From Bacilli bacterium (GTDB taxonomy: Bacteria; Bacillota_I; Bacilli_A; ML615J-28; CAG-313), in assembly GCA_017501465.1 (NCBI GenBank), contig JAFVWY010000002.1, positions 62,001-126,000 of the forward strand: a stretch of DNA of 64,000 nt, read 5' to 3'. The translations under genes were made by a program, and so were the position numbers. Positions 843 through 54,091 of this stretch are shown here, piece by piece; the stretch's first letter is position 1; every line of letters begins with the position of its first letter. Below the pieces are notes generated by a model. That model saw nothing but the letters and a program-made list of their open reading frames with translations, did no database searches and was not told the origin of the DNA.

Positions 843-843
843 T

Positions 844-1680
844 ATGGGAGTATTACAAAAAGTCACTTTTTATAGTCACGTTAATTTAGATTTTGCGCAT
901 TTAGAAAAAGAAGAGCTTGGACAAAATTCTAATATTTTTGTTGATGCTTATAAGCCTGTTGCAAACAATTATACTCGTTCTTTGGTTAGTTTTGAAAATG
1001 GCGTAAATTCTCAAAGTGTATCAGATGATGCTTTGGGTTATACCTTTTCAATATATAGATTAGATGAAGATGGAACTACTTTGATTCCTATTTCTTCTAA
1101 AAATAACGATAAACTATCTATTGTAGATTATAATGTTAGAAATCAAAAAAAATATCAATATTACATTTTCAAAGAAGATTCAACATCTATTTCTAAAGCA
1201 TTATTATCCAATGAAATAACAACTTGTTGGTGGGATTATTCTATTAGTGGATTAACATTGGAAGATGTTGCAACAAATACTTATAAAATTAATCCTAATG
1301 ATGTTTGGTTATTTGGGTCAAATGTTGAAAGTGATAGCACATCACAAAATTTTGCAAAGACAACATATCAAAATTTAACTAAATATCCACAAATATCAAC
1401 TGGAAAATCAAATTATGCTAGCGGTTCGTTTTCTGCATTAATAGGAAAAGTCGAAAATAATGATTATAAGGAAGATGTTTTATTATTAGATAAGTGGAAT
1501 GAATTTTGTTCAAATAATCAACTTAAATTGTTCAAAGATAGAAAAGGGCACAAATATATTGTTGATGTGACAACATCCAGCAACAATACTCTTGATGAAA
1601 CAAGGCAGCAAGCTACTGTTGTAACAGTCGGATGGACTCAAATAGATAATGCTGATGAATATATTATTATAGGTGATTAA
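844..1680 (+). CDS. Tail protein, baseplate region
   Basis: 278 residues; the ATG follows GAGGAGT and starts one base after the previous stop, so translation is probably coupled. The N-terminal half looks like a beta-sandwich. The C-terminal half (about residues 150-275, from WLFGSNVESD to the VVTVGWTQI stretch) has the pattern of domains in tail-tip proteins of Gram-positive phages. No catalytic motif. Function is inferred from position between two other tail proteins. Confidence 0.55.
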   Translation: MGVLQKVTFYSHVNLDFAHLEKEELGQNSNIFVDAYKPVANNYTRSLVSFENGVNSQSVSDDALGYTFSIYRLDEDGTTLIPISSKNNDKLSIVDYNVRNQKKYQYYIFKEDSTSISKALLSNEITTCWWDYSISGLTLEDVATNTYKINPNDVWLFGSNVESDSTSQNFAKTTYQNLTKYPQISTGKSNYASGSFSALIGKVENNDYKEDVLLLDKWNEFCSNNQLKLFKDRKGHKYIVDVTTSSNNTLDETRQQATVVTVGWTQIDNADEYIIIGD

Positions 1681-6346: not shown

Positions 6347-7957
6347 ATGTCAAAAGTAAAATTTTATAGTGATTCGGCTAAAACTAATCAGGTATATCCT
6401 GAAATTGATTTGGGTGAAAATCTTGAATTAGGTTTAGAGAATTATTTTGCAATTACTGCTGACGATGGAATATATGGTCTTGAATTTGACCTTTGGAACA
6501 CATCACATACTTCAGCAGGAACAAAAACCGGGAAGAATGCTGGTCAAACAATAACACCAGGAACAAATACTGTTTATGAAACAAGTTCATATGGTGCTGC
6601 ATTCGATTCATATGATTGTAATGCTTTTGTTGATAGTGACGGCGTTCAACATATTACATATTTAAAAGGTATGCCTGAATATGGTGATACTGAAGACACA
6701 ATTAAAACTTATACATATAATGGAACAACTTATTTACAAGATGTTTTTGTTATAAAAAGAACTTATTATGAAAAATGGTACAATAATGGTACTAAACAAT
6801 ATTACGAAAGAAGTTATATTCCTAGAGATGGATTTACTCCAGTTGCTCACGCAATTAGAAAAGATGGAACTGTTAGTCCTTGGTTCTTGACTGCTAAATA
6901 TGTAGCAGGATTAGATAGTCAAGGAAGAAGACGTTCATTAAAAGGATTAAAACCAGCAAGAAATAATTCATATAATAATGAGGTAACTAACTATCATAAT
7001 AGAGGAACTTATTATACTGGTGGATTAACAAGTGAATATAAAGATTTCTTAACTACTTTCTGGTTAAAATATGGAACTAGAAATACACAATCAGTTATGG
7101 CTGGATGTACAAGTTATAACTATCAATATGCTTTAGCTGCCGCTGAAAGTGATGTTAAGAGAGTTAAAATCACGACAGCGCAAGCTGCTAATTTAGTTGT
7201 TGGAAGTTCTGTATCTATTGGTAATGCAGGAAGTTCAACAAATCACGATAGAGGACAAGCACATATGCATAATATTGCTGATAGTGTAGTTATTACATCC
7301 ATTGTAGAAGATGAAGAGGATAATACATATTCTTATGTTTATGTTGATGTTGATGATGCTTTCTCAATTACAGAACCAACAACAACTTATATCAGTACAA
7401 TGCATTGGCAATCTGGATTTAGTGATAATGTATTAGGTAGAGATGGATGTCCAGGAAATTTAACTAATGGTAAATTCCCTATGGTATTAGATGGAATTGA
7501 AATGATGGTTGGTGGATATGAAGTTGCTGGAAATGCAATTATGGACATCGTAAGTTCAACAGGACAAAGAGAAGTTTATGTAACTAATGACTCTACTAAA
7601 TTAACAACTACTGTAGCAACTATTAAATCAACTTATAATAAATCAAGTTATTCAATGCAACCAACTACATTAAATGCTTGGAATTATATCACTGCAATGC
7701 AACTTGATTTAGCTAATGGTGTTGCTATACCTACTGAAGCTGGAGCATCACAATCTGGTTCAAGTGTAGGATATGCAGATGGATTATATGTAGATGCTGG
7801 AACAAGTGGACAAAGAGAGTTCCTTCTTCTTGGCTCTCTGGATGCTGGTGCGAATGCTGGTCTTTCTTGCTTGTATGCTGGCATTGGCTTGTCGACTGCG
7901 GGCTGGCTTTGCCTTGCGCGCCTTTCTATAAATGCAACAGGTGGCACTTTAGCGTAA
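6347..7957 (+). CDS. DGR-diversified receptor-binding-type protein
   Basis: 536 residues behind AAAGGAG. The C-terminal part, roughly from residue 360 (MHWQSGFSDNVLGRDGCPGN) to the end, has the layout of a C-type-lectin/formylglycine-synthase-like fold as in the Bordetella phage Mtd target. The variable repeat at 7820-7929 lies near its C-terminus (after GTSGQRE). Compared with the template, 23 of 30 adenines differ and no other base does. It follows fibre and baseplate genes, so it is most likely the host-recognition protein. The far N-terminus is probably the tail-docking part. Confidence 0.85.
   Translation: MSKVKFYSDSAKTNQVYPEIDLGENLELGLENYFAITADDGIYGLEFDLWNTSHTSAGTKTGKNAGQTITPGTNTVYETSSYGAAFDSYDCNAFVDSDGVQHITYLKGMPEYGDTEDTIKTYTYNGTTYLQDVFVIKRTYYEKWYNNGTKQYYERSYIPRDGFTPVAHAIRKDGTVSPWFLTAKYVAGLDSQGRRRSLKGLKPARNNSYNNEVTNYHNRGTYYTGGLTSEYKDFLTTFWLKYGTRNTQSVMAGCTSYNYQYALAAAESDVKRVKITTAQAANLVVGSSVSIGNAGSSTNHDRGQAHMHNIADSVVITSIVEDEEDNTYSYVYVDVDDAFSITEPTTTYISTMHWQSGFSDNVLGRDGCPGNLTNGKFPMVLDGIEMMVGGYEVAGNAIMDIVSSTGQREVYVTNDSTKLTTTVATIKSTYNKSSYSMQPTTLNAWNYITAMQLDLANGVAIPTEAGASQSGSSVGYADGLYVDAGTSGQREFLLLGSLDAGANAGLSCLYAGIGLSTAGWLCLARLSINATGGTLA
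7820..7929 (+). repeat. DGR variable repeat (VR)
   Basis: 110 bases near the 3' end of the target gene, aligned without gaps to the template at 8089-8198. All 23 differences fall at template A positions (A to G, C or T); all 80 non-A positions are identical. Altered codons are mostly AAT/AAC/ACG/TAC in the template, which spreads amino-acid choice without making stops. An A-free GC-rich tract (CTTGCGCGC) near the 3' end is a candidate initiation-of-homing site. Confidence 0.95.
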
Positions 7958-8280: not shown

Positions 8281-8453
8281 CACCTAAGAAGGGCATAAAC
8301 GAAAGTTTATCTTTAGTCTTGGTTAGGCTAGAAGTTTAAAGCTGAAAGGAAAGGGTCTAGTAGAACACCTTCCACTAAGAAAGAAAAAATCAATGCAAAC
8401 AATCCACATACGTGTGTCAGAACGACCTTGACGCTTTGAAAGGAATAAGATAT
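8281..8453 (+). ncRNA. Structured spacer between DGR template and RT gene
   Basis: No open frame of note. It contains a perfect hairpin with a GAAA tetraloop (ATAAAC-GAAA-GTTTAT, 8295-8310) and a second imperfect stem (GGAAAGGGT with ACACCTTCC). In known DGRs the TR-RT spacer RNA folds and is required for cDNA priming, so this stretch is probably the 3' part of the template RNA and the RT leader. Confidence 0.45.
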
Positions 8454-9644
8454 ATGAAGACATATTTGAGAAAATTCCAATTTTCATATGCATTTGTTCG
8501 TAGCGCTATTTACGATTGTTTAAGACGTAATCGTTGGAAGAGACAAGACACATCATACTTTTTTGCAGATTATGCAATTGAAGTTATGAAAAAGCATAAT
8601 AAAAAAGTTCCAAATAGAGCAACTGTAGCACATTATTTAAGAAATATTGCATATGAAGATATTACAAAGTTATTTCCTTTAGTTGACTATATTGCATATA
8701 GGATGTATCAAGAAATAAAACACCAAAATATGCATATGAGTCCAATAGAATACCAACAAAGACACGATGGCTCTAGTGGCAAAATACGTGAAATTGGTAT
8801 TGCAAGCATAAAACAACAATGTTATGACTACATAGCCGTTGAATCTTGCCAACATATGTTTTTAGCAAAAGTTGGCTACTATCAATGTGCTAGTTTACAA
8901 AATAAAGGTCAAGTCTTTGGCAAAAGCGCTATAGAGACTTGGATAAGAACTAAACCCTACGAATGCCGTTGGGTTTTTAAATGTGACATTCGTAAATATT
9001 ATCCTAGCGTTAGTCACGATAAAATTAAACAATTATTGGCTAGAGATATTAAGAGCAAAGAAGTATTATATCTTTTATATTCATTAATAGATACTTATAA
9101 ACAAGGATTAAGTATAGGCTCTTATTTATCTCAATTTTTAGCTAATTATTATTTATCTTATTTATATCATTATATAAGTGAACAATTGTATACATATAAA
9201 AGAAATAAAAGAGTTCGCTTAGTTCATCATCAATTATTTTATATGGATGATATTATTCTTTTTGGTTCAAATAAAAAACATATGAATAAGGCTATTAAAC
9301 TAATAAAAACATATCTAAAAGATAATTTAGGGTTAGAGCTTAAAGAAAATGAGCAGTTTTTTGAATTAGATAGCCGAGACATTGATATGATGGGATATAG
9401 AATAAGAACAAATAAAACATCCGTGAGGAAAAGAATATTTAATCGAGCTAATCGTTTATATAGAAGCATTCAAAGAAACGGTTATGAAATGGATTTAATT
9501 ACGGCATATAGAGCCATAAGTTATTATGGTTATTTTATCCACAGCTGGAGTTATAAATATTCTAAACAAATCAAATTAGAAAAAATTATTAAAAAAGCAA
9601 AGGAGGTTATTTCAAATGCGAACAAGAGAAGCAGTATATACTAA
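8454..9644 (+). CDS. DGR reverse transcriptase
   Basis: 396 residues from ATG 8454, preceded by GAAAGGAA; an upstream in-frame GTG at 8412 has no ribosome site. RT motifs in order: CDIRKYYPSVSHDKI (about residue 180), the DGR-type motif IGSYLSQFLANYYL (about 220; group II introns and retrons differ here), catalytic YMDD (about 261-264), then a thumb region. It copies the TR into A-mutagenised cDNA. No Avd gene lies beside it, so the accessory factor is absent, diverged or elsewhere. Confidence 0.93.
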   Translation: MKTYLRKFQFSYAFVRSAIYDCLRRNRWKRQDTSYFFADYAIEVMKKHNKKVPNRATVAHYLRNIAYEDITKLFPLVDYIAYRMYQEIKHQNMHMSPIEYQQRHDGSSGKIREIGIASIKQQCYDYIAVESCQHMFLAKVGYYQCASLQNKGQVFGKSAIETWIRTKPYECRWVFKCDIRKYYPSVSHDKIKQLLARDIKSKEVLYLLYSLIDTYKQGLSIGSYLSQFLANYYLSYLYHYISEQLYTYKRNKRVRLVHHQLFYMDDIILFGSNKKHMNKAIKLIKTYLKDNLGLELKENEQFFELDSRDIDMMGYRIRTNKTSVRKRIFNRANRLYRSIQRNGYEMDLITAYRAISYYGYFIHSWSYKYSKQIKLEKIIKKAKEVISNANKRSSIY

Positions 9645-28947: not shown

Positions 28948-29053
28948 TTTAGGTGAATTTAAGAAAAATATTATAGAATATTTAAAAAAGCAAGAAAGTA
29001 AGGAGAAAAAGAAAAATGGAGGTAAAAGTTCTAAAGATAATAAATCAAAATAA
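28937..29053 (+). CDS. Tiny Lys-rich hypothetical protein
   Basis: 38 residues, start overlapping the polymerase end behind GAGGGGG, end overlapping the RNA ligase start. Single amphipathic helix then a Lys/Ser tail (KKKNGGKSSKDNKSK). It may mainly couple translation to the ligase gene. Confidence 0.4.
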   Translation: MKIDLGEFKKNIIEYLKKQESKEKKKNGGKSSKDNKSK

Positions 29054-30167
29054 TAATTGGAGAGATATTTTATCTGCTGAGCCATATAATTTGATTATTA
29101 AAGAAAAGAATAATTTTGTATTATTAAAATATGACCAATTAAATAGTGATATGTCTAATGAAATTGTCCAAGAATGTAGAGGAATTATTTTAAGAAATAT
29201 TAATAACAAATATGAAATCGCATCAATGAGATTTACCAAATTTTTCAATTATGGGCAGGAACAAGCAGCAAAATTAGAATTTCCCTGTGAGGCTTCACAA
29301 AAAATAGATGGTAGTTTAATAGGCGTTTGGTATGATGAAATGACTGGATGGCACGTGTCTACTTCTGGGAATATTGATGCTGAAGATGCCCCAATAAATA
29401 TAAGTAATATTAATAATTATAGAGAATTATTTAATATTGCCTGGGGAGATTTAGACTTAAACATATTAGATAAAAAAAATACTTATATGTTTGAGCTTGT
29501 AAGTCCATATACAAGAATTATAGTACCATATAATGAAACTAAATTATATTTATTAGCCATTAGAAATAATGAGACATTAAAAGAAATTTCAAGAAGCGAA
29601 TTACCAATTATTGCGAAACAGTTATTTGGCAATAAAATCGAAGTACCAAAATCATTTCTTTGTAATAATATAGAAGAAGTACAAAATGCCGTAAATAAGT
29701 TAACGGAAGATAGTGAACATTATGAAGGATTTGTTTTATGTGACAAATATTTTAATAGGGTTAAAATGAAATCATCAACTTATATGGATTTGTTTTTTAT
29801 CAAAGGAGAGGGAATATTTAGCGACAAAAAAATATTACAATTAATCTTAGACGAGCAAGATGATGATATACTAGGACATTTCCCAGAATATACAGATGAT
29901 TTTAATAGAATTAGACACGGCCTATGTTTATTTATAGCACATCTTAAAAAAGATTTACACGATATAAGTAAATATCAAAACTTAGATAGAAAAGGTTATG
30001 CTCAAAAAGTTCAGGAATATAAATATAAAGATATTTTATTTAAAGCATATGGATGTAATCTTTGGAATAAAGATGAAGATTACTATTATAATTTTCTAAA
30101 AACATATATAGAAACAATCCCAATATCTAAATTGGTTGATTGGGTGGTGGAAGAAACAAATGAGTAA
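29016..30167 (+). CDS. T4 Rnl1-like RNA ligase
   Basis: 383 residues. Nucleotidyltransferase motifs: I SQKIDGSLIGVW with adenylated Lys96, upstream ECRGIIL, IV EGFVL, V RVKMKSSTYM. It joins 5'-phosphate and 3'-OH RNA ends, in T4 to repair cleaved anticodon loops. The following genes (Tdk, nucleotidyltransferase, phosphatase) are tightly linked. It is the best candidate in the window for sealing the permuted tRNA halves at 46246-47019, which is inference. Confidence 0.82.
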   Translation: MEVKVLKIINQNNNWRDILSAEPYNLIIKEKNNFVLLKYDQLNSDMSNEIVQECRGIILRNINNKYEIASMRFTKFFNYGQEQAAKLEFPCEASQKIDGSLIGVWYDEMTGWHVSTSGNIDAEDAPINISNINNYRELFNIAWGDLDLNILDKKNTYMFELVSPYTRIIVPYNETKLYLLAIRNNETLKEISRSELPIIAKQLFGNKIEVPKSFLCNNIEEVQNAVNKLTEDSEHYEGFVLCDKYFNRVKMKSSTYMDLFFIKGEGIFSDKKILQLILDEQDDDILGHFPEYTDDFNRIRHGLCLFIAHLKKDLHDISKYQNLDRKGYAQKVQEYKYKDILFKAYGCNLWNKDEDYYYNFLKTYIETIPISKLVDWVVEETNE

Positions 30168-32414: not shown

Positions 32415-33298
32415 ATGAAAAAAGTTATTAAAAGAGACGGAAGAACGGAATTATTTGATAAAGAAAAGATAGTTAGGGCTGTCGAGCTATCGTTTCAAGA
32501 TATAGAAAATGAAATATCTGAAAAAGCCCATTTAAAAGCAAGAGAAATAGCTAATTTTATTGCAAATATAGAAGATGATTTGACAGTAGAACAAATACAA
32601 GATATTGTTGAAGAAAAATTAATGGCAAGCAATTATAAAAATATTGCAAGAAATTTTATTACTTATAGATATGAAAGAACTAAAATGAGAGAAAGAAACT
32701 CTCAATTTATGAAAGATATTTCGGAAAAACTTGCAGCTTCCAATGTTCAAAATCAAAACGCTAATGTTGACGAATATTCATTTGGTGGAAGAATGGGAGA
32801 GGCTAAAAATTCCCTTATGAAAAAATTTGCTCTTGATTATATTTTATCTGATATGGCAAGAGAAAATCATCTAAATAATGAGATATATATTCACGATTTA
32901 GATGCTTATGCAGTTGGTATGCACAATTGTTTAACAATTCCTTTTGATAAATTATTAGAGAATGGATTTAATACTAGACAAACAGATGTTAGACCAGCTC
33001 GTTCAATTAATACAGCCTTTCAATTAGTAGCCGTATTATTTCAATTACAAAGTTTACAACAATTTGGTGGCGTTAGTGCTTCACATTTAGATTGGACTAT
33101 GGTTCCTTATGTTAGAATATCATTTAGAAAACATTTTAATGAAGGAATGGAATTTATTGAAGAAAGCGATTTAAGATGCGAAGCCGACTTATCCATTGAA
33201 GATGATTTTTATAAACAATTTCCTAGAGTTTATAAATATGCAATGGCTAAAACAGAGAAAGAATTAATGCAAGCCGTTCAAGGTATGTATCATAACCT
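32415..33298 (+). CDS. nrdD: Anaerobic ribonucleoside-triphosphate reductase, exon 1
   Basis: Residues 1 to about 295 of a 733-residue NrdD. An ATP-cone comes first (VIKRDGRTELFDKEKIVRAV), then the barrel start with YIHDLDAYAVGMHNCLTIPF. The coding frame runs on into HNLNY and a stop inside intron 1. Removing 33299-34251 restores HNLNTLQSRSGNQLPF, the invariant family sequence. Reduces NTPs to dNTPs with formate in anaerobes; needs NrdG. Confidence 0.9.
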
Positions 33299-34251
33299 TA
33301 ATTATTAGGGCGACTTAATAGTAATATTAGGAACTTAGTTATCTAAACGGGGAAACTCTCATAGAGACAATCCCGTGCTAAATTTGTATCATTAAAAAGA
33401 AGAAAAGGGGTGGATAATATGTATTCTGTTTATTTGCATAATAATAAAATAAATAACAAAAAATATATAGGTATAACTAAACAAAAACCAAAAAACAGAT
33501 GGGGTTTAAACGGTTATAATTATAATAGTAGTCCTTATTTTTATGCAGCCATACAAAAATATGGTTGGGACAATTTTGAGCATATTATCTTATATAAAAA
33601 TTTAACAAAAGAAGAAGCGTGTGAAAAAGAAATAGAATTAATAAATAAATATAAAACACAAAATAAAAAATATGGATATAATATAATGGAAGGTGGAAGT
33701 GCACCTAGTTTACCAAAAGAAGTAAAAGATAAATTATCAGAAGCTTTAAAAGGTAATCAAAATGGCAAAGGCCATCCTTGCGATATAAATAAAAGAAGAA
33801 AAATAAGTGAGGCACAAAAAGGTAGAAAATTAACAGAAGAACATAAAAGAAAATTATCATTAGCAGCAAGCAAAAGACACGTAATATGTTCTGATGAAAA
33901 GAAAAAACTTTTATCTCAAAACTATCCATATAAAAAGAAAATATATTGTATTGAAACAAATATTATATATGATTCGGTACAAGAATGTGCAAGACAACTT
34001 AATTTACACGCAACAAATGTTACAAAAGTATGTAAAGGTATCCATCGTACAACCGGTGGTTATCATTTACAATATTATAATGATACAATAAATGCCTAAC
34101 GACTATCCACATAAAACGTGGAGTAGGCTCAAGCGAGTCGAAATGGTAACCTCCTCACTAGAGGATGAAGATATAGTCTAATCTTTATGGTGACATAAAG
34201 AAGTTCATAAGAGAACTGCATAAGATTAGCGACCTTATGTGAATATTAATG
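33299..34251 (+). mobile_element. Group I intron 1 in nrdD
   Basis: 953 bases interrupting the codon pair Leu-Asn of HNLN. The upstream exon ends in T and the intron ends in G, as group I splicing requires. Core-like stretches near the 5' side (ACGGGGAAACTCTC ... GACAATCCCGTGC) and 3' side (GAAGATATAGTCT) fit group I P/Q/R/S elements. It carries the GIY-YIG gene. The splice sites are set by restoring the NrdD frame. Confidence 0.85.
33419..34099 (+). CDS. GIY-YIG homing endonuclease (intron 1)
   Basis: 226 residues from ATG 33419 (AAAAGGGG eight bases before; an in-frame GTG at 33410 is less placed). Catalytic module YSVYLHNNKINNKKYIGITK with NRWG, then FEHIILYKN. Linker and two NUMOD3-type DNA-binding repeats (KRRKISEAQKGRKLTEEHKR; LSLAASKRH), then a NUMOD1-like helix-turn-helix (YDSVQECARQLNLHATNVTK). 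It would cut intron-less nrdD to spread the intron. Confidence 0.88.
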   Translation: MYSVYLHNNKINNKKYIGITKQKPKNRWGLNGYNYNSSPYFYAAIQKYGWDNFEHIILYKNLTKEEACEKEIELINKYKTQNKKYGYNIMEGGSAPSLPKEVKDKLSEALKGNQNGKGHPCDINKRRKISEAQKGRKLTEEHKRKLSLAASKRHVICSDEKKKLLSQNYPYKKKIYCIETNIIYDSVQECARQLNLHATNVTKVCKGIHRTTGGYHLQYYNDTINA

Positions 34252-35455
34252 TAATACATTACAATCAAGAAGCGGAAATCAACTACCATTTACGTCAATT
34301 AATTATGGGACTTGTACTTTACCAGAAGGTAGAATGGTTATTAAAGCATTATTAGAAGGTTCTATTGAAGGAGTTGGTAAAGTAAGAAAGACTCCTATAT
34401 TTCCTTGTGGAATCTTTCAATGTATGAAAGGGGTTAATAGAAAACCTGGAGACCCTAATTATGATTTATTCCAATTAGCATTAAAATCAACATCAAAAAG
34501 ATTATATCCTAATTATGTTAATGTAGACTGGTCTACCAATGTTGGATATGATAAAAATGACCCAAAAACATATGTAAGCACAATGGGCTGTAGAACATAT
34601 AATGGGGCTGATATTAATGCTGAAGAAGGAACTAATCCACAAACAAAAGATGGTCGTGGGAATATTTGTCCAGTCACAATTATAATGCCTACGCTTGCAA
34701 TGGAAGCCGACAGAGATGTAGATAAATTTATGAAATTATTAGATAAAAAAATTGGAGAGGCAAAAGATATGCTTATTGAAAGATATAATTATATTTGCTC
34801 ACAATCTCCAGAATCTGCTAAATTTATGTATGAAAATGGCTTAATGTTGGGTTATGATGGTAAAACAGTTGAAAGTGCAATGAAACACGGTACTTTGGCT
34901 CTAGGGCAAATTGGCTTAGCGGAAACACTTCAAATATTAATCGGTAAAGACCATACGACGCCTGAAGGTATGGAGCTTGCTAAAAAAATTGAACAATTAT
35001 TTAAAGATAGATGCGCTGAATTTAAAAAGAAATATAAACTAAATATTGGTGTATATTACACTCCTGCTGAAAACTTATGCTATACTGCTATGAAAAAGTT
35101 TAAAGCTCAATATGGAGAAATAGAAAATGTTTCAGATAGAGACTATTTTACAAATTCAATTCACGTTCCTGTTTGGAAGAAAGTATCGCCTTTTGAAAAA
35201 ATAGATATTGAAAGCCAATTAACTGGTTATAGTAATGCTGGATGTATTACTTATGTAGAATTAGATAGTGGCGTTCAAAATAATCTTGAAGCTTTAGAAG
35301 AATTAGTTAATTATGCTATGGATAAAGATATACCGTATTTTGCTTTAAATGTTCCAAATGATACTTGTTTAGAGTGTGGTTACACAGATGAATTCAATGA
35401 TGAGTGCCCTATGTGTCATAGTAAACATATCCAACAATTAAGAAGAGTAACGGGT
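34252..35455 (+). CDS. nrdD: Anaerobic ribonucleoside-triphosphate reductase, exon 2
   Basis: Residues about 295-696. Contains PFTSINYGTCTLPEGRMV, the thiyl-radical Cys in TMGCRTYNGA (about residue 408), GRGNICPVTI, and the C-terminal zinc site CLECGYTDEF ... CPMCHSKH. It ends exactly after the codon of the glycyl-radical Gly696 in RRVTG; the next bases (TAA) are an intron stop. Confidence 0.9.
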
Positions 35456-36199
35456 TAACCTGTATGATAAGCCCGCAAATTGACGTAAACTTATATTAAT
35501 TATAAGGTTTCCTTAACCAGAACCCTCTTCGGGTTCAGAAGTAAAATAATAATTAAGGAGGTATCGAGAGATGAAAAATAATTCAAACCTCGAGTTTCGT
35601 AAAATAAAATCGCTTAAATATTTATATGAAATAAATGAAAATGGAACTGTTTTTAGAAATGTTAAATCTAAAAAACAAAATAAAATTGTTTTAGATATGC
35701 ACCATTCAAAAATAGGTTATTATAAAACTATGGTTCACCTAAAAGAAGGAACTAAAAGAATAATGATACATAAAGTTGTTGCCGAATGTTGGTTAGGAGA
35801 TTGTCCTGATGGTTACGAAGTAGACCATATAGATAGAAATCCCCATAATAATGATTATAGAAATTTAAGATACGTCACTCATAGTGAACAAATGAAAAAT
35901 AGAGTATTAAGTGACAAAATAATAAATCAAGCAAAACAAAATTGTTTAAATCATTCATTAAATGTTTTAGCAAAATCAGTTAAAATAAAGAGTGATAATG
36001 AAGAATTAACATTTAGGTCTATGACGAAATGTGCAGAATATTTAGCGGAAAAATATAATAAGACAAGTGAATCAATTAGATATAAATTAAAAGCAAGAAG
36101 ACATCATATATTTGATTATGATATATTTTACGAAATGTAGAGACTGGACACGTCAGCCTTACGGGGCAAGGAACAGTCCATAATAATTAAGATATTATG
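35456..36199 (+). mobile_element. Self-splicing-type intron 2 in nrdD
   Basis: 744 bases inserted directly after the glycyl-radical codon. Upstream exon ends ACGGGT and the intron ends in G, so group I chemistry fits; the exon end can pair with CCTGT just inside the intron (P1-like). Hairpin GAACCC-TCTTC-GGGTTC lies upstream of the endonuclease gene. Group assignment is less sure than for intron 1. Confidence 0.75.
35571..36140 (+). CDS. HNH homing endonuclease (intron 2)
   Basis: 189 residues behind AAGGAGG. NUMOD4-like N-terminus (IKSLKYLYEINENGTVFRN), HNH core (EVDHIDRNPHNNDYRNLRYV followed by SEQMKNR), and a C-terminal NUMOD1-like DNA-binding part (FRSMTKCAEYLAEKYNKTSE). Different family from the intron 1 enzyme. 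Confidence 0.88.
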   Translation: MKNNSNLEFRKIKSLKYLYEINENGTVFRNVKSKKQNKIVLDMHHSKIGYYKTMVHLKEGTKRIMIHKVVAECWLGDCPDGYEVDHIDRNPHNNDYRNLRYVTHSEQMKNRVLSDKIINQAKQNCLNHSLNVLAKSVKIKSDNEELTFRSMTKCAEYLAEKYNKTSESIRYKLKARRHHIFDYDIFYEM

Positions 36200-39946: not shown

Positions 39947-40759
39947 ATGAATAAAACAAAAGATAACATTGGAAATCGAATGAAAGAATATGAGATGGTT
40001 AGCAGAAATTATTTAACTAGAAGAACGCCAGTAATAATTCGTTTAGATGGTAAAGCATTTCATACATTAACTCGTGGCTTAGATAAGCCATTTGATGAGC
40101 ATTTTGTTAGAATTATGCAAACAACTATGTTAAAATTGTGTGAAAATATTCAAGGATGTGTATTAGGTTATACTCAATCAGATGAGATAACATTAGTTTT
40201 AGTAGATTACCAAAATAGAGATACTTGTGCTTGGTTTGACAATCAAGTTCAGAAAATGGCAAGTATAAGTGCTAGTATGGCTACATTATATTTTAATCAA
40301 GCACTATCAGAGATGTTAAGAGAATTAGAGGATGATATGAGAATGGCAGAATACAGTATAATTCAAGCTAATTTCTATCAAAAAAATGAAGCATTGTATG
40401 ATAAATGGAGCAATAAAGAGTACAAAGGAGTGTTTGATTCAAGAGTATTTAATATTCCACAATATGAAGTTATTAATAATTTAATTTGGCGACAACAAGA
40501 CGCCACCAGAAATAGCATTAATGCTGTTGCCCAAAGCTTATATCCTCACAAAGAACTTCAAGGTATTAATAAGAATGATTTGCAAAATAAAATGTTAACA
40601 GAAAAAGATGTAAATTGGAACAATTACCCAACAACTCTTAAACGCGGGTGTTGTGCAATCAAGGATTCAGAAAGTAAATGGTATATAGATAATGAGATTC
40701 CTATATTTACAGAGAATCGAGATTATATTAATAAATTAATATTTTTAGATGGGGAATAA
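39947..40759 (+). CDS. Thg1-like 3'-5' polymerase (tRNA end repair)
   Basis: 270 residues. Thg1 palm motifs: VIIRLDGKAFHTLTRG (first metal Asp) and GYTQSDEITLVLVD (second acidic pair), and INNLIWRQQDATRNSINAVA in place of the HINNLYN motif of eukaryotic enzymes, as in bacterial Thg1-like proteins. These add nucleotides to tRNA 5' ends in the reverse direction (G-1 of tRNA-His or 5' repair). Own promoter and terminator. It stands beside a phage tRNA island whose tRNA-His has A73. Confidence 0.88.
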   Translation: MNKTKDNIGNRMKEYEMVSRNYLTRRTPVIIRLDGKAFHTLTRGLDKPFDEHFVRIMQTTMLKLCENIQGCVLGYTQSDEITLVLVDYQNRDTCAWFDNQVQKMASISASMATLYFNQALSEMLRELEDDMRMAEYSIIQANFYQKNEALYDKWSNKEYKGVFDSRVFNIPQYEVINNLIWRQQDATRNSINAVAQSLYPHKELQGINKNDLQNKMLTEKDVNWNNYPTTLKRGCCAIKDSESKWYIDNEIPIFTENRDYINKLIFLDGE

Positions 40760-41176: not shown

Positions 41177-41533
41177 TTACCATCCTAAATCATAAAAATA
41201 TGTTTTAAATAATGCAAGAGCTCTTTTTTGCCTTTTAAATGCATTATGAGATTCTTCTTCTTTAATCATTGATGCAAACCCTTTTATCATTTCATCTAAA
41301 ATAGATTCCCATTTTTCTTCAGTCAATCTTGCTGGATAGGCACATCTTTTTGTATCTTTAAATGTTCTTAGATAAGTATATATAATCATTGCCAAAACTC
41401 CATCCATACTCCAAGTATGTGAATTTGGGATGCCGGTATCTTCGTCTGGAATATATCTATCATCATCGTGTCTAAAATAAAAATTCTTTTCATCTACGCC
41501 AAGTTCTCTTAAATATCTGTTAAGTTTAATCAT
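41177..41533 (-). CDS. Uncharacterised phage protein
   Basis: 118 residues. DTGIPNSHTWSMDGVLAMII followed by YTYLRTFKDTKR is a pattern I associate with a common family of uncharacterised Firmicute phage proteins. Helical. Overlaps the HAD gene by eight bases. Confidence 0.5.
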   Translation of the reverse strand: MIKLNRYLRELGVDEKNFYFRHDDDRYIPDEDTGIPNSHTWSMDGVLAMIIYTYLRTFKDTKRCAYPARLTEEKWESILDEMIKGFASMIKEEESHNAFKRQKRALALFKTYFYDLGW

Positions 41534-41978
41534 TAATTAATTCCTCCTCATATCTAACTATTAATTGTTGAGGATATAATGCTTTTATCCCTATTTTTTT
41601 ACATTGTTGTAATATTTCTTTTTTATCGTCAATAATAGTACAATCTTCTAATTTCATATTATTAGATATAGAATATTCATTGATATAATCTGCTTTTGTT
41701 TTAATATCATCACTTGCAATTAAATATGGAGAATTAATTAGAAATGATTTTGGAAGATGTTTTCTCATCCAATTTATTTTTTCTTGTTTGCCATCTTCTC
41801 CTCCAACATATCTACTTATGATAATTATATTAGCAATATCTCTATAATAATAATCAACTAAATGAATTATCTCTTTAATAGGTTTTTTATTTAAATACAA
41901 ACCTTTTGTATAGGGAACATCATCACAAGTTTCATTTAAAGCAAGCGTATTATCTAAATCAACAAAAACAGTTTTCAT
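41526..41978 (-). CDS. HAD-family nucleotidase-like protein
   Basis: 150 residues from ATG 41978 (AGAGG before it). Motif I VFVDLDNTLALNE, motif II IIIISRYVGG, motif III Lys in KTKADYINEY, motif IV TIIDDKKEIL. Resembles 5'-(deoxy)nucleotidase-type HAD proteins of phages. Substrate unknown; could also be an RNA-end phosphatase. Confidence 0.65.
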   Translation of the reverse strand: MKTVFVDLDNTLALNETCDDVPYTKGLYLNKKPIKEIIHLVDYYYRDIANIIIISRYVGGEDGKQEKINWMRKHLPKSFLINSPYLIASDDIKTKADYINEYSISNNMKLEDCTIIDDKKEILQQCKKIGIKALYPQQLIVRYEEELIND

Positions 41979-41982
41979 AATT

Positions 41983-42201
41983 TCATACCTCTTTATTTCT
42001 ATATTTACGACCTTTTTTGAAATGTTCTTTTGCATATGCTTCAGCTGCTTCTTTTATTTCTTTACCCTTAGCTGTTAAATATTTAGATGCCATAGGATTT
42101 CTTTTTAACTTTTTGTTAGTTTTACCTTTTTTATCTAAATTAGCTTGAGTAATGATATAATGTCCTTCACCTGAACCAGAACTGCCTTTTCTTTTACCCA
42201 T
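41983..42201 (-). CDS. Small basic protein
   Basis: 72 residues from ATG 42201 (AAGGGG site). Very Lys-rich (KGKTNKKLKRNPMASKYLTA) and probably nucleic-acid binding. It is directly downstream of tRNA-Gln, so it lies at the distal end of the tRNA transcript. Confidence 0.45.
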   Translation of the reverse strand: MGKRKGSSGSGEGHYIITQANLDKKGKTNKKLKRNPMASKYLTAKGKEIKEAAEAYAKEHFKKGRKYRNKEV

Positions 42202-42234: not shown

Positions 42235-42309
42235 TGGCTGCCAGGACTGGATTCGAACCAGTGCATCCTAGAGTCAAAGTCTAGTGTCTTACCGCTTGAC
42301 TACCTGGCA
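42235..42309 (-). tRNA. tRNA-Gln(TTG)
   Basis: Complete cloverleaf: acceptor TGCCAGG/CCTGGCA, anticodon loop CTTTGAC, T-loop TTCGAAT, encoded GCCA. Reads CAA. Confidence 0.93.
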
Positions 42310-42316
42310 ATAATAA

Positions 42317-42393
42317 TGGTAGAGGTAGTAGGACTCGAACCTACGATTTCTGCCTTATCAGAGCAGCGCTCTAACCGACTGAACTATACCTCT
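42317..42393 (-). tRNA. tRNA-Ile(GAT)
   Basis: Acceptor AGAGGTA/TACCTCT, anticodon loop CTGATAA, encoded ACCA. Reads ATC/ATT. Confidence 0.93.
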
Positions 42394-42557
42394 ATATATA
42401 AATAGGATAACGCTTGTATAGTAAAGGGTCGACCACACATTCTATACACACCCTACGTTTTACTTAACTTATTCTATTAGTCTCGTTAGTGTCATTGAGC
42501 TATCAGCAGTTGCTCCATACGTTTCTGCATCAAAGTTAAAACCTAATATTATCAATT
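42394..42557 (-). other. Non-coding spacer in the tRNA island
   Basis: No gene or intact tRNA seen. Contains CTTAACTT/AAGTTAAG-type self-complementary stretches and GGTCGACC, but no closed structure I would name. Confidence 0.4.
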
Positions 42558-42594
42558 TGGAGCCGGTGGTCGGACTCACGACCCGTCATCCGGC
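42558..42594 (-). ncRNA. tRNA-minihelix-like hairpin with TCCA end
   Basis: GCCGG pairs with CCGGC, an inner stem GGTCG/CGACC follows, and the 3' strand ends TCCA. It has the size and layout of an acceptor-plus-T-arm minihelix, but the loop TGAGTC is not a T-loop. A degenerate tRNA or a processing mimic are both possible. Confidence 0.35.
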
Positions 42595-42599
42595 ATATA

Positions 42600-42673
42600 T
42601 GGAGTGAGTAATGAGAATCGAACTCACATTATCAGCTTGGAAGGCTGAAGTCCTACCATTAAACGATACCCAC
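42600..42673 (-). tRNA. tRNA-Gly(TCC)
   Basis: Acceptor GTGGGTA/TACTCAC, anticodon loop CTTCCAA, T-loop TTCGATT, encoded TCCA. Reads GGA. Confidence 0.93.
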
Positions 42674-42680
42674 ATAATTT

Positions 42681-42756
42681 TGGCGCTCCAGACAGGCTTC
42701 GAACCTGTAACCTTTCGGTTAACAGCCGATTGCTCTACCAAACGAGCTCCTGGAGC
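42681..42756 (-). tRNA. tRNA-Asn(GTT)
   Basis: Acceptor GCTCCAG/CTGGAGC, anticodon loop CTGTTAA, encoded GCCA. Confidence 0.93.
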
Positions 42757-42764
42757 AATATTAA

Positions 42765-43478
42765 TTAGGAACCTTGAGTTCTATTTATTCCTCTTTTAGT
42801 TCCTCGTAAACAATATTTACAAGTGCTAGTAAATTTATAATATGATTCTTCCATCATTTTGTCTATTTTCACTAGAATATCTTTATCATTGATGTCTATA
42901 TATTCATCCTGTGTCATATTTTTAATATCTATTAACCCTAGATTTACAGCTTGAGCAAATCTTCCACAAGCATATATTCTATCTTTCATTAATGTTAAAT
43001 ATCTAAAATCACAAAATTTTATTTTTGGTTCTTTATGGTCTATGAAATCGCCGTGTTCTATCCAATCATCATCGTCTGGTCTAATAACGTGACTTATATT
43101 ATATTTAGTAAATATGTCGCATAATTTCTTTTTTACTGTTTCATTACCATATCCTCCAATTATTATATGGAATTTGTTATTCATTGTTTTACATAATTCT
43201 TCTATATAATTTGGATATATAGTTCCGTTTGTAAATATTGCACATTGGTCTATATCTAAATCTTTAATATAATTACATATTTTAACCAAATCAGGATATA
43301 AAAATGTTTCTCCGCCAATTACAGATATCGTTCTATATTTCTCTAATGATGGTTTAATTTTATTCATATTTGCAATAATTTTATCTGCATCTAAAAACTC
43401 TCCATCTTTATATTTATTAAATAAATAACAACATCCATCACATTTTAAGTTACATTTTGTGGTAAGTATTACATCCAT
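42765..43478 (-). CDS. Radical SAM protein
   Basis: 237 residues from ATG 43478 (TTGGAGG before it); a longer frame upstream runs through tRNA-Ile and is not real. FeS site TTKCNLKCDGCCYLF at the N-terminus, SVIGGETFLYPD for SAM, and further Cys toward the end (FTSTCKYCLRGTK). Unlike NrdG it has no reductase partner next to it. Coded inside the tRNA island, so a tRNA-modifying or peptide-modifying role is possible; substrate unknown. Confidence 0.75.
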   Translation of the reverse strand: MDVILTTKCNLKCDGCCYLFNKYKDGEFLDADKIIANMNKIKPSLEKYRTISVIGGETFLYPDLVKICNYIKDLDIDQCAIFTNGTIYPNYIEELCKTMNNKFHIIIGGYGNETVKKKLCDIFTKYNISHVIRPDDDDWIEHGDFIDHKEPKIKFCDFRYLTLMKDRIYACGRFAQAVNLGLIDIKNMTQDEYIDINDKDILVKIDKMMEESYYKFTSTCKYCLRGTKRGINRTQGS

Positions 43479-43494
43479 AATTAAACCTCCAAAT

Positions 43495-43571
43495 TGGTAG
43501 AGGCGGTAGGATTTGAACCCACGACCAGAGAGATATAAGCTCCCCACTCTAAACCGCTGAGTTACGCCTCT
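43495..43571 (-). tRNA. tRNA-Ile(TAT)
   Basis: Acceptor AGAGGCG/CGCCTCT, anticodon loop CTTATAT, encoded ACCA. A TAT anticodon reads ATA directly; most bacteria use lysidine-modified CAT instead. It fits the ATA-rich genes of this phage. Confidence 0.88.
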
Positions 43572-43572
43572 A

Positions 43573-43650
43573 TGGTGGTTGCTCCAAGAGTCGAACTTGG
43601 TTCTACGGATTTTCAGTCCGTCGCTGAATGACCGCACTAGCTCAGCAACC
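43573..43650 (-). tRNA. tRNA-Phe(GAA)
   Basis: Acceptor GGTTGCT/AGCAACC, anticodon stem-loop ACGGA-CTGAAAA-TCCGT, encoded ACCA. The D arm is unusually large (GCT...AGC around AGTGCGGTCATTC). Confidence 0.88.
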
Positions 43651-43652
43651 AT

Positions 43653-43729
43653 TGGTACCCTGTAAGGGACTCGAACCCTTGAATGTCTGATAGAAAGTCA
43701 GATGTGTTAAGCCGCTTCACCAACAGGGC
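43653..43729 (-). tRNA. tRNA-Glu(TTC)
   Basis: Acceptor GCCCTGT/ACAGGGT with a G-T first pair, anticodon loop CTTTCTA, encoded ACCA. Confidence 0.92.
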
Positions 43730-43740
43730 ATTTATCTTAT

Positions 43741-43817
43741 TGGTAGCGCCAGAGAGATTCGAACTCTCGACTTCACGGGTATGAACCGTGCGTTCTAGCC
43801 AACTAAACTACAGCGCT
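43741..43817 (-). tRNA. tRNA-Met(CAT), elongator-type
   Basis: Acceptor AGCGCTG/TGGCGCT (two G-T pairs), anticodon stem-loop CACGG-TTCATAC-CCGTG, encoded ACCA. A CAT anticodon can also be Ile2 after lysidine modification, but tRNA-Ile(TAT) nearby makes Met likelier. Confidence 0.88.
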
Positions 43818-43823
43818 ATATGT

Positions 43824-43847
43824 AAAAAGGGCGGGTCGTATCCCGCC
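43824..43847 (-). terminator. Terminator upstream of tRNA-Met
   Basis: On the minus strand GGCGGG-ATACGA-CCCGCC followed by CTTTTTA. It would stop or attenuate transcription between tRNA-Leu(TAA) and tRNA-Met. Confidence 0.6.
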
Positions 43848-43929
43848 AGAAAAATAAGCTAAAGCTGACAAGCTATCTTTTTCTCACTATTTATAACTAG
43901 CCAAATACGATATTTGCTTTGAAAGAAAT

Positions 43930-50187: not shown

Positions 50188-50325
50188 GATTAAGGATTAT
50201 TTTGTGTAGTTTTATCTCTTATATTACTGATTATTTTGACCTTTTGCATTCTTTGGTATAATCAAACCTTAATCATAGAGCCCTTCTTCTAATGCAATTT
50301 AACTACGAGGGGCGTTTATAATAAT
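50188..50325 (-). ncRNA. Structured spacer, possible tRNA remnant
   Basis: An 8-bp inverted repeat GATTAAGG/CCTTAATC (50188-50195, 50267-50274) with a following T-rich stretch on the minus strand looks terminator-like. Overlapping it, TTGCATT pairs with AATGCAA, and GCCCCTCGTAGTTAAATTGC resembles a tRNA 5' part with no matching 3' part. A decayed tRNA is possible. Confidence 0.35.
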
Positions 50326-50356
50326 AGGAAGTAAAAAAATGAAAGTATCTTATTAA

Positions 50357-50433
50357 TGGTCGGGGAGACCCGACTTGAACGGGCGACCTCTAGTTCCCAA
50401 AACTAGCGTTCTACCAAACTGAACTACTCCCCG
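50357..50433 (-). tRNA. tRNA-Pro(TGG)
   Basis: Acceptor CGGGGAG/CTCCCCG, anticodon loop TTTGGGA, encoded ACCA. Shares its acceptor stem with permuted unit 6. Confidence 0.93.
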
Positions 50434-50434
50434 A

Positions 50435-50872
50435 TGGTGGAGCTGACGAGAATCGAACTCGTGTCCAAAAATATTCTACTAATCACAAATCTCATTCTGC
50501 CTTACAAGTTTTAATACTCTATCTATATAAGACTTATTCTTATCCATTTATCTTGGCTGAGTATAGCTTCCGTAAATGGCTCTACGCATCACAGTAAATC
50601 ACTTTATATTCCACGGCTAGAGACAGTCAATAAAGCGTCCATCTTTGCATCGTTAATCGACTATACTTTCTCTGATGGCTTCTGATACTCATATAGAAGT
50701 CTCTTTTGCTCTCGACTAAGCGAAAGCCACACTATTTAAAGTGAATAAAGATTTAACTTTATTAGAGAATTGTTTTAAAATGTTTCCATTTATTTTTGGT
50801 TTTGTATTTTACGTTTACCAACGACTTGTATTGTGACTTTTCAATCATTCCTGTCGAAACCAAAGCAGCCCC
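50435..50872 (-). ncRNA. ssrA: tmRNA (phage-encoded)
   Basis: 438 nt. The 5' end GGGGCTGCTTTGGTTTCGAC is the classic tmRNA start; the 3' end has T-arm GAGTTCGATTCTC and CAGCTCCACCA, pairing with GGGGCTG. An open frame beginning around GNILKQFSNK and ending LNSVAFA then TAG is the likely tag, of the long type ending in -AFA known from mycoplasmas. It rescues stalled ribosomes and tags their products. The resume codon is inferred. Confidence 0.92.
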
Positions 50873-50875
50873 ATA

Positions 50876-50949
50876 TGGTGCCGACTGACAGAATCGAACT
50901 GCCAATAGATGCTTACAAGGCAACTGTTATACCTTTTAACTAAGTCGGC
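50876..50949 (-). tRNA. tRNA-Thr(TGT)
   Basis: Acceptor GCCGACT/AGTCGGC, anticodon loop CTTGTAA (one T-T mismatch in the stem), encoded ACCA. Ends three bases before the tmRNA 5' end. Confidence 0.9.
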
Positions 50950-50992
50950 ATTGAAGCGAAACTAATCGCTTAACATCTTTGAAATTGTTTTA

Positions 50993-51292
50993 CTAATGTT
51001 TTTCATCCATAACATTATATTTAGTAATATTTTTATTTAATTTTTCTTTAACTCTTTCATAAGTTTCTGTTGCAGTATTTAATAATCTACGTTCAACTTT
51101 CGCATAGTGTTGTGCAAACTTCCTTTTTGCTCTTAAATATGCCAATTTTTCACCAAAATCTTTATCGAACTTATCTTCTTTTGAGCATTTGCTTTTGCCA
51201 ATAAATTCTCTTCCAAGTGCATCATAAATTTTAAATACTATGACACCAGCATCTTCATTAATAAATGTTTTTGTACTTTTAATTTTAATCAT
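50993..51292 (-). CDS. Uncharacterised phage protein
   Basis: 99 residues. DALGREFIGKSKCSKEDKFD followed by DFGEKLAYLRAKRKF is a pattern I associate with small proteins of Firmicute phages. It is preceded by a leader with alternative stems (51311-51373). Function unknown; basic C-terminus suggests nucleic-acid binding. Confidence 0.55.
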   Translation of the reverse strand: MIKIKSTKTFINEDAGVIVFKIYDALGREFIGKSKCSKEDKFDKDFGEKLAYLRAKRKFAQHYAKVERRLLNTATETYERVKEKLNKNITKYNVMDEKH

Positions 51293-51310
51293 CTAAATCA
51301 CCTTTCTTTC

Positions 51311-51373
51311 ATACCCTTGTTGACTCTTTGAAAGACAACAGGGGTATTTTGTCCTTCAAACAGCCAACAAGGG
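51311..51373 (-). promoter_or_regulatory. Leader RNA with competing stems
   Basis: On the minus strand CAACAAGGGTAT (51311-51322), near the ribosome site of the 99-residue gene, can pair with ATACCCCTGTTG (51336-51347, 11 of 12) or CCCTTGTTG (51365-51373, 9 of 9). These folds exclude one another and compete with local hairpins (ACAGCC/GGCTGT; TTGAAGGAC/GTCTTTCAA). This layout suggests translational control. Confidence 0.45.
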
Positions 51374-51462
51374 CTGTATATATATTTACACGTTGAACTT
51401 CAATATCAATGATATTTACTTTTAACTATTATAGTTAATCTGCCGTATAAACCAAATTTTAA

Positions 51463-51538
51463 TGGCGAGTCGTAGGGGTAACGCTCCCCTCATCTTCTGC
51501 GTGACAGGCAGACGTGTTAACTTCTCCACTAACGACCC
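51463..51538 (-). tRNA. tRNA-Asp(GTC)
   Basis: Acceptor GGGTCGT/ACGACTC, anticodon loop CTGTCAC, encoded GCCA. The T-loop AGCGTTA departs from the usual TTCGANT. Confidence 0.87.
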
Positions 51539-51541
51539 AAC

Positions 51542-51616
51542 TGGCAGGGAACTAGGGACTCGAACCCCAATCAATGGTTTTGGAGACCACTATGCTAGCC
51601 ATTACACCAGTTCCCT
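51542..51616 (-). tRNA. tRNA-Trp(CCA)
   Basis: Acceptor AGGGAAC/GTTCCCT, anticodon loop CTCCAAA, encoded GCCA. The CCA anticodon reads TGG only, consistent with TGA being a stop. Confidence 0.92.
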
Positions 51617-51896: not shown

Positions 51897-53139
51897 TAGA
51901 TTTTTTATATTTTGCAGTTTCTTCGTCAATTTTTCTCTTAGTTTCTTCATCTAATAAGCCGTTTTCATACTTTAAAGATATACTTACAGCGCCTAAGCCT
52001 TTTATTAGATGGTCTAATGTTTCTATTGCCGTGTTATTTTTTGCATATTTCACAATATCAATAAAAGTGTCAATACAATTTGTTATATCCTCTTCCTTAT
52101 CAAAGCCAAATTCGTATAAAGTATTTTCAATTTCTTCTTTCAAAGCAATTTGTTCTTTCCCTAAATCATTTAAACATTTTTCACAAGCCCATTTGCCATT
52201 TTGTAGTTCTTTAAATTCTGTTGGTTCACCACAATGTAAACAATAATGTTTCTTTTCTTGGCTAGTAAGCAAATCATCTTCATCTATGTCCATAGCACGA
52301 ATTGATTCTAAACATTCATTTAACATTGTAGCACATTCATCTGCTGAAATTTCTCTATTAGCTTGTGGGTCTCTTTTGCAATGTTTATACCATCTTACTT
52401 TATAATCTTTCCATTTAAAATTATATTTTTGGTCATATTCATCATCCCAACTATATGCCTCAACTTCAAACACATCATTTTTAAATTGTTCTCCTGTATT
52501 ACTAAATGGACTATCAAATTCTTCTTGATTTATATTCCACATTACTCTAGCTAATTCTTCGTCAATTAATGAAAATGCTGCTTGAACATAATCAGGAACA
52601 TCACTATGATATTTTTCTTCATACATATCATATTTATAAGTTTCATAACATTCGTCATTAGATTCTTTTTCTTGTTTTTCATTGTAATTATCATATATAT
52701 CAATAAATATAATATCATCTCTAATATCATTATGTTGATATTTATTGTCAAATTCAGAATTTCCATCTTCCCAAGGAACTGAAACATATAAATGAGTTCC
52801 GTCTTTATAAATCAAATCAAAATGAGTAATATCATTATGTTTAACTCTTTCTTTTAGACTATCGTCTTCATCATCGCCATACATTTCATTCCAAGAACTT
52901 TTTAAATTCATTCCTTTTTTATTTATAATGATGGAAGCGTATTCACAAGATGTGAAATTAGATGTTTCTCCTGGTTTTGTAAATTCACTTAATCCGTTAA
53001 AGTGTAATACGGTTTGAAATTTAATATTATCAACCGTCATACGGTATATACAATCAGCCGGAACTTCATATACTTCACAATTTTCAAAAACAATATCTAC
53101 TCTTTCTATTTCTCTATCTAGGAAATTTAAATTATTCAT
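51886..53139 (-). CDS. Hypothetical protein with C-terminal zinc ribbon
   Basis: 417 residues from ATG 53139 (AAGGAG before it). N-terminal two thirds are acidic alpha/beta without a known domain. YCLHCGEPTEFKELQNGKWA ... CEKCLNDLG (about residue 315-345) is a CxxC...CxxC zinc site, then a helical tail. Overlaps the kinase-HD gene by eight bases. Confidence 0.55.
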   Translation of the reverse strand: MNNLNFLDREIERVDIVFENCEVYEVPADCIYRMTVDNIKFQTVLHFNGLSEFTKPGETSNFTSCEYASIIINKKGMNLKSSWNEMYGDDEDDSLKERVKHNDITHFDLIYKDGTHLYVSVPWEDGNSEFDNKYQHNDIRDDIIFIDIYDNYNEKQEKESNDECYETYKYDMYEEKYHSDVPDYVQAAFSLIDEELARVMWNINQEEFDSPFSNTGEQFKNDVFEVEAYSWDDEYDQKYNFKWKDYKVRWYKHCKRDPQANREISADECATMLNECLESIRAMDIDEDDLLTSQEKKHYCLHCGEPTEFKELQNGKWACEKCLNDLGKEQIALKEEIENTLYEFGFDKEEDITNCIDTFIDIVKYAKNNTAIETLDHLIKGLGAVSISLKYENGLLDEETKRKIDEETAKYKKSIDK

Positions 53140-54091
53140 CTTTATCTCCTTCCCTGTAAGCATCAGCTTCCATTAATATTTCTAATTTTTTGTATAATTT
53201 ATCACCAAGTAATTCCTTAGTTTTATCTAAGTTGCCAATAAATTTATCCATATGATGATATATTAACATTGAAATATCCATTGCATTATCATCTAACTCT
53301 AGCATATAGAAACTTTGATGTGGGTCATTTTTAAACTTCCAATACATTAAATATATATATGCACTAATGGTATGATGATTATAATATGTATATTTTTGCT
53401 TTGTTTCATTCCACTCTCTTGAATATGGTTTGCCTATATCGTGAAATCTACCGGCTATACCCAAACATTCATCTCCATCACTTAACTCAAAAGCTCTTTT
53501 TGATGTTAGTTCAAGATGTTCCAATACGGTTGCATTATGATGTTCATTATGTTGGTCATAATCTTTTCCTATACTCATTATCCAACTAATAACATCTCCA
53601 TACTCTTCATCAACATTATTTGAATAACTAACAAATATTTTATTATATCCCTCATATTTCATTGGAATGCTCATAGTTTTGAATAACTGAAATAATTTAT
53701 CTTCCGGAAGTTTTCTTTCTGGTCTGGTGAAATTACGTTCAATTAAAGTTCCTATTGTAGCAATACATAAAACGGCGTTTATATTTGTGGCATATTTTTT
53801 CATTTCATCAATAAGATTTTTTCTTTTTTTAATGTTTAGATTGGTTGCGTTATATATAACATTTTTACCTTCTTGTAAATATTGTTTGCATCTTCTATGC
53901 ATTTCCTGGAATACTTCATTATTATGAGTTTGGTCTTCCCATCCAAATAATTCTAATCTAATATCATCACTTGATAAAATAACTGTTTCTATAGATGTCA
54001 TTTTTTCATTTTGTTTCTTCATAACTTTTGCTAATGTATCTTTACCAGAACCAGGCAACCCTATCATAATATATAAATTACTTTTCATCAT
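53132..54091 (-). CDS. P-loop polynucleotide kinase-like + HD protein
   Basis: 319 residues. Kinase part: LYIMIGLPGSGKDTLAKVMK (P-loop), LSSDDIRLELFGWEDQTHNN, GKNVIYNATNLNIKKRKNLI, FTRPERKLPED (lid Arg), as in T4 Pnk N-terminal kinases. From about residue 190 an HD domain: IAGRFHDIGKPYS, YNHHTISAYIYL, LIYHHMD. Such fusions can phosphorylate 5'-OH RNA ends and open 2',3'-cyclic phosphates. Natural partner for the RNA ligase at 29016; partnership is inferred. Confidence 0.75.
   Translation of the reverse strand: MMKSNLYIMIGLPGSGKDTLAKVMKKQNEKMTSIETVILSSDDIRLELFGWEDQTHNNEVFQEMHRRCKQYLQEGKNVIYNATNLNIKKRKNLIDEMKKYATNINAVLCIATIGTLIERNFTRPERKLPEDKLFQLFKTMSIPMKYEGYNKIFVSYSNNVDEEYGDVISWIMSIGKDYDQHNEHHNATVLEHLELTSKRAFELSDGDECLGIAGRFHDIGKPYSREWNETKQKYTYYNHHTISAYIYLMYWKFKNDPHQSFYMLELDDNAMDISMLIYHHMDKFIGNLDKTKELLGDKLYKKLEILMEADAYREGDKDE

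Follow-up and report, generated by a model that had tools for sequence, protein, structure and literature searches.

tmRNAs encoded by phages are known from mycobacteriophages and Bacillus phage G (PMC4131195), from Streptomyces BE phages (PMC11237712), and from huge phages (PMC7162821); an earlier note on the DNA studied here called them rare, which holds in a relative sense only. The tag of Bacillus phage G is AKLNITNNELQVA. The most frequent length of a tmRNA tag is 10 amino acids (PMC11915505). The ssrA tag of Mesoplasma florum, AANKNEENTNEVPTFMLNAGQANYAFA, is long, ends in -AFA, and is degraded by mf-Lon (PMC9097571), in a bacterium that lacks ClpXP (PMC8138137). A group I intron form of tmRNA, in which the T loop is interrupted, has also been described (PMC11915505).

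The DNA analyzed here (the window) is a stretch of 64,000 nucleotides, positions 62001-126000 of contig C9, which is part of a 1.56-Mb bin. The contig is 129,311 bp long, and a terminal overlap of about 141 bp shows it to be circular and complete. It encodes a portal, tape measure and tail proteins, endolysin, DNA polymerase, primase-helicase, and integrase, and is a phage genome, so that the tmRNA described below is phage-encoded, as the earlier note had proposed. The presence of the integrase gene suggests that the phage is temperate. The features considered in this work are listed below in window coordinates.

42235..51616, minus strand: tRNA array around the tmRNA gene, 22 tRNAs called by ARAGORN plus a tRNA-Tyr-like gene (23 in total)
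about 50009-50094, minus strand: tRNA-Tyr(GUA)-like gene with CCA
50357..50433, minus strand: tRNA-Pro(UGG), one base downstream of the tmRNA 3' end (ARAGORN)
50435..50872, minus strand: tmRNA gene (ssrA), 438 nt, CCA encoded (ARAGORN; Rfam RF00023, 84.5 bits)
50435..50466, minus strand: 3' part of the tRNA-like domain, with T arm, acceptor strand CAGCTCC, A73, and CCA (sequence, Rfam alignment)
50708..50727, minus strand: H5-type hairpin GCUUUCG-CUUAGU-CGAGAGC, whose loop holds the stop codon (fold, sequence)
50716..50787, minus strand: tag frame with stop, comprising resume codon GGA, tag GNILKQFSNKVKSLFTLNSVAFA, and stop TAG (translation, homologues)
50730..50743, minus strand: hairpin B, CACU-UUAAAU-AGUG (covaries among homologues)
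50744..50763, minus strand: hairpin A, AAUAAAG-UUAAAU-CUUUAUU, coding for NKVKSL(F) (sequence, homologue pairing)
50853..50872, minus strand: 5' part of the tRNA-like domain, acceptor strand GGGGCTG plus the TGGTTTCGAC D-loop region (sequence)
50876..50949, minus strand: tRNA-Thr(UGU), upstream neighbor of the tmRNA gene (ARAGORN)
29016-30167: RNA ligase of the T4 Rnl1 type
39947-40759: Thg1-like tRNA-His guanylyltransferase
41526-42035: PNKP-like phosphatase
53132-54091: AAA_33 kinase-HD protein

The last four genes make up an RNA/tRNA repair kit that accompanies the tRNA array. The tRNA-Tyr-like gene was missed by both ARAGORN and Rfam in the window; ARAGORN calls a tRNA-Tyr at the homologous place in the relatives L075 and L107. 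Neither the window nor the other scanned stretches of the contig yielded a lysine tRNA. Elsewhere in the window, a reverse transcriptase (8412-9644) beside a tail-region gene (6347-7957) may be part of a diversity-generating retroelement, and the anaerobic ribonucleotide reductase NrdD (32415-35458) is divided in two by a GIY-YIG/NUMOD homing endonuclease frame (33410-34099), an arrangement that suggests an intron.

Both ARAGORN and Rfam identify the minus strand of 50435-50872 as a tmRNA. The earlier note had named a tmRNA covariance model as the check to be made, and the RF00023 match extends over the whole model (1-374 of 374) at 84.5 bits, with a gathering score of 47 and an E value of 2.5e-31; the bin's own tmRNA scores higher on the same model (144.6 bits). 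This score, together with about twenty homologues, excludes a chance match. The 5' end (GGGGCTGCTTTGGTTTCGAC), the tRNA-like 3' end with its encoded CCA, and the tag frame are all present within 438 nt, as had been noticed earlier. The acceptor stem forms seven of seven pairs, G3.U70 among them, and is followed by A73 and the encoded CCA; G3.U70, A73, and CCA are kept in 14/14 homologues. A short version of PK1 (CGUU/AACG, GGU/ACC) can be drawn by eye, and the part corresponding to PK2-PK4 aligns poorly with RF00023 (mean accuracy 0.54). The locus is confirmed as an intact, full-length tmRNA gene on a phage genome. It resembles the standard one-piece tmRNA (RF00023) in the full-length match, the tRNA-like domain, G3.U70, the single tag frame, and the H5 hairpin with the stop codon, but differs from it in that the 23-codon tag frame holds two extra hairpins.

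The tag frame is open, with no internal stop, over 23 codons (GNILKQFSNKVKSLFTLNSVAFA*). The long tag ending in LNSVAFA-stop that had been read earlier from the window was correct, and the same frame is found in the homologues. For the window, ARAGORN itself gives a different tag (ESKRDFY...), which we ruled out, since the homologues give the frame of GNILKQFSNKVKSLFTLNSVAFA: the program calls exactly this tag in L075 and L106, which go back to one viral contig, and in L108, and close variants in L115 and L117. An annotation tool can therefore give the wrong tag for genes of this phage tmRNA family. Like the M. florum tag, the phage tag is long and ends in -AFA; the remainder of the two tags is unrelated, and the bin in which the phage was found has Lon and ClpP. 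The known phage tmRNAs (Bxz1/Cali/Catera/Wildcat, phage G, Streptomyces BE phages, and huge phages) are likewise carried by large, tRNA-rich phages, but those of their tags that were compared have no detectable homology to the tag described here.

Homologues were collected by a DnaE search, by two tmRNA patterns, and by one degenerate tag pattern. About twenty related phage tmRNAs were obtained, nearly all on IMG/VR contigs and situated in tRNA arrays, and their long tags conform to [GDAN]N(I/L)xxKxxN[KR]VKS[LV]FxxNxVxFA. One of the tmRNA patterns was confined to the GGTTTCGAC start plus the resume region and did not presuppose the NKVKSLF stretch of the tag; every related match long enough to read carried N[KR]VKS[LV]F. 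A search with the degenerate tag pattern through 84,980 bacterial and archaeal species, each represented by one genome, gave eight matches, two of which were tmRNAs, both of them phage copies, and none was a bacterial chromosomal tmRNA. Relatives among isolated phages, sought by DNA or by tag, amounted to two matches of 35-37 nt at the tRNA-like 3' end. No description of this tmRNA family, or of a structured tag frame, was found in the part of the literature that was searched.

Several observations were made on the relatives. The T loop of the L140 tmRNA (780-1500, minus strand; L138 was also noted) is interrupted by about 0.67 kb, whereas the copy in the window is uninterrupted. The insertion gives a group I intron signal in two pieces (E values of 5e-5 and 2.5e-3, below the gathering score) and contains an antisense frame of 140 amino acids with a weak LAGLIDADG match; the 3' exon, TCTCGTCATCTCCACCA, is located downstream of it. 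Near the tRNA arrays of tmRNA-bearing relatives there are matches to ROOL (L112 and L122) and to OLE (L115, L120, L122, L123, L140, and L146); neither reaches the gathering score anywhere in the window. Two tRNA-rich IMG/VR contigs, L129 and L143 (L172, L173), carry tmRNAs called as permuted by ARAGORN, with tags ANDNIYALVA and ANDNIYALAA.

Codon usage was compared among the 17 distinct 23-codon tags of the family. The terminal alanine is invariant, yet all four of its codons (GCT, GCC, GCG, and GCA) are used, and Val19 and Phe21 are each encoded by several codons; this pattern indicates that the C-terminal end of the tag is under selection as a peptide. The codons of NKVKSL are nearly frozen: AAA of the second lysine and TCT are found in 17/17 tags, AAT, GTT, and TTA in 15/17 each, and AAA of the first lysine in 14/17. 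This stretch coincides with hairpin A, a perfect seven-pair stem in which 98% of cells are paired across 14 distinct homologues. Where AAA is replaced by AAG, in L146, a G.U pair is kept. The two divergent members L138 and L140 have changed residues, and their sequence, AACAGAGUAAAAUCUGUU, no longer allows complete pairing in the original register; a six-pair hairpin forms there in a shifted register instead. No double substitution within one register was seen, so that hairpin A draws its support from its invariance and from the shifted hairpin in these two close relatives. Synonymous encodings would give such stems by chance in 3-7% of cases for NKVKSLF and in about 1% for NRVKSVF.

Hairpin B occupies the 14-16 bases after NKVKSLF. 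Its letters and residues vary together (CACU/AGUG, CGCA/UGCG, CUCU/AGAG, ACUAC/GUAGU), and its support is this covariation, the synonymous-encoding test being weak for most members; it is absent or weak in L118 and L122. With the two hairpins scored jointly in register 1, and with hairpin B scored in register 2, the covariation score was above that of 500/500 shuffles, the sequences being few and related, such that relatedness alone can exceed shuffles without any structure. Hairpin A, hairpin B, and the canonical H5 with the stop codon thus follow one another in the tag frame. We know of no standard tmRNA in which the tag frame ahead of H5 is structured. While the phage tmRNA per se is a further member of an already known type, the conserved, hairpin-rich tag frame of the family is what is new, and it is moderately supported by these data.

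It could be argued that selection on NKVKSLF acts on the peptide alone, which might be a docking site for a host protease, an adaptor, or the membrane, with the hairpins as by-products of AT-rich codon choice. The invariance of V, K, S, and F in the middle of the tag, the conservative nature of the K/R and L/V changes, and the 3-7% chance of a seven-pair stem given the peptide would agree with such a view. We nevertheless regard it as unlikely, because the synonymous sites of NKVKSLF hardly change while the codons of the terminal Ala, Val, and Phe do, because hairpin B covaries although its residues change freely, and because L138 and L140 re-form the hairpin in another register.

The bin's only SmpB, Lon, and ClpP genes are chromosomal and lie on contigs other than C9, and the phage itself has none of the three, implying that the phage tmRNA must use host partners. 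With both Lon and ClpP in the bin and neither in the phage, Lon and ClpXP cannot be told apart here as readers of the tag. The earlier note had called the tag end one of the mycoplasma kind and had taken it as a hint at the host lineage. This hint did not hold up: tags with an -AFA end are also present elsewhere in the bin's class (e.g., GNKQQLAFA), and the bin's own chromosomal tmRNA (C1:163809-164169, L001) encodes the tag GNQNLAFC. A bin with ClpP and Lon does not fit a mycoplasma-type lineage lacking ClpXP, although the bin may not be the host of the phage. The same phage is present in the MAG RGIG6143, a "Clostridia bacterium" from sheep rectum with the tag ANNNFKANLAVAA (99.98% identity over 8 kb, and a further 20 kb reported at 100%), and a relative is present in RGIG2134 from goat colon, with the tag ANNVVKADFSRAQALAA. 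Comparison with the tags of candidate hosts, which had also been proposed, yielded no match: none of the three bins in which the phage or its relative occurs has a tag like that of the phage. Given the -AFA tags in the bin's class and the occurrence of one phage in two bins that are unrelated, the host cannot be read from the tag end. DNA searches aimed at the host (same genus, same order, and the Clostridia side) gave only weak matches in AT-rich sequence, with neither a clear spacer nor a clear prophage among them. As a separate observation, chromosomal tags in the bin's family (L001, L032, L036, L039, L040, and L043) end in cysteine, an unusual degron end, as in GNQNLAFC, ANTNYAFC, ANNTNYAFC, and GNTNYSFAC.

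The lack of a phage SmpB could also be read as a sign that the RNA is a decoy, which would soak up host SmpB and block host trans-translation in the manner of the tmRNA of mycobacteriophage DS6A, a short tmRNA-like RNA that consists of the tRNA-like domain only and inhibits tmRNA (PMC4131195, PMC11915505). We consider this quite improbable, since the family keeps an intact and selected tag frame, a resume site, a stop codon, and a degron-like end, none of which a decoy needs. Although tmRNA genes commonly serve as targets and passengers of mobile elements, it is hardly credible that the phage recently picked up a host tmRNA, host tag included, that plays no special role: the tag resembles none from the three bins where the phage or its relative occurs, the degenerate tag pattern matched no bacterial chromosomal tmRNA (84,980 species, one genome each), and the family is spread over divergent phages.

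The reading that we prefer, with a probability of roughly 0.75, is that the locus encodes a working one-piece tmRNA that uses host SmpB and whose tag frame is kept as a peptide at its end and as an RNA in its middle. Judging from sequence, its likely function is ribosome rescue with phage-specified tagging. The tmRNA would probably be cut out of the transcript of the phage tRNA array, charged with alanine by virtue of G3.U70, and bound by SmpB of the host, the phage having none of its own. It would then enter stalled ribosomes in infected cells, where translation would resume at GGA, add Ala and GNILKQFSNKVKSLFTLNSVAFA, and end at UAG, leaving a rescued ribosome and a protein whose hydrophobic -VAFA end is a putative degron, to be read by an AAA+ protease of the host (Lon or ClpXP). 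The tag frame may thus perform two jobs, its C-terminal end being kept as peptide and its middle as RNA; hairpins A and B ahead of H5 probably compact or protect the long open frame, or pace the ribosome. Rescue most likely continues during infection while mRNAs and tRNAs are cut, a view that fits the RNA-repair kit which the phage also encodes, with its T4-type RNA ligase, its PNKP-like phosphatase, its AAA_33 kinase-HD protein, and Thg1.

More tentatively, a clade of large gut phages may have evolved a trans-translation tag of its own, encoded by a sequence that at the same time acts as a folded RNA module, with hairpins A and B preceding H5. Stalled proteins in infected cells would then receive a phage-specified tag, and their fate, or the rate of rescue, would differ from that provided by the host tmRNA. 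The finding bears on the question of why phages carry tmRNA at all: a single conserved tag that is unlike host tags and is constrained both as peptide and as RNA offers a testable handle on whether the phage re-labels stalled proteins, and on whether a structured tag frame alters ribosome rescue.
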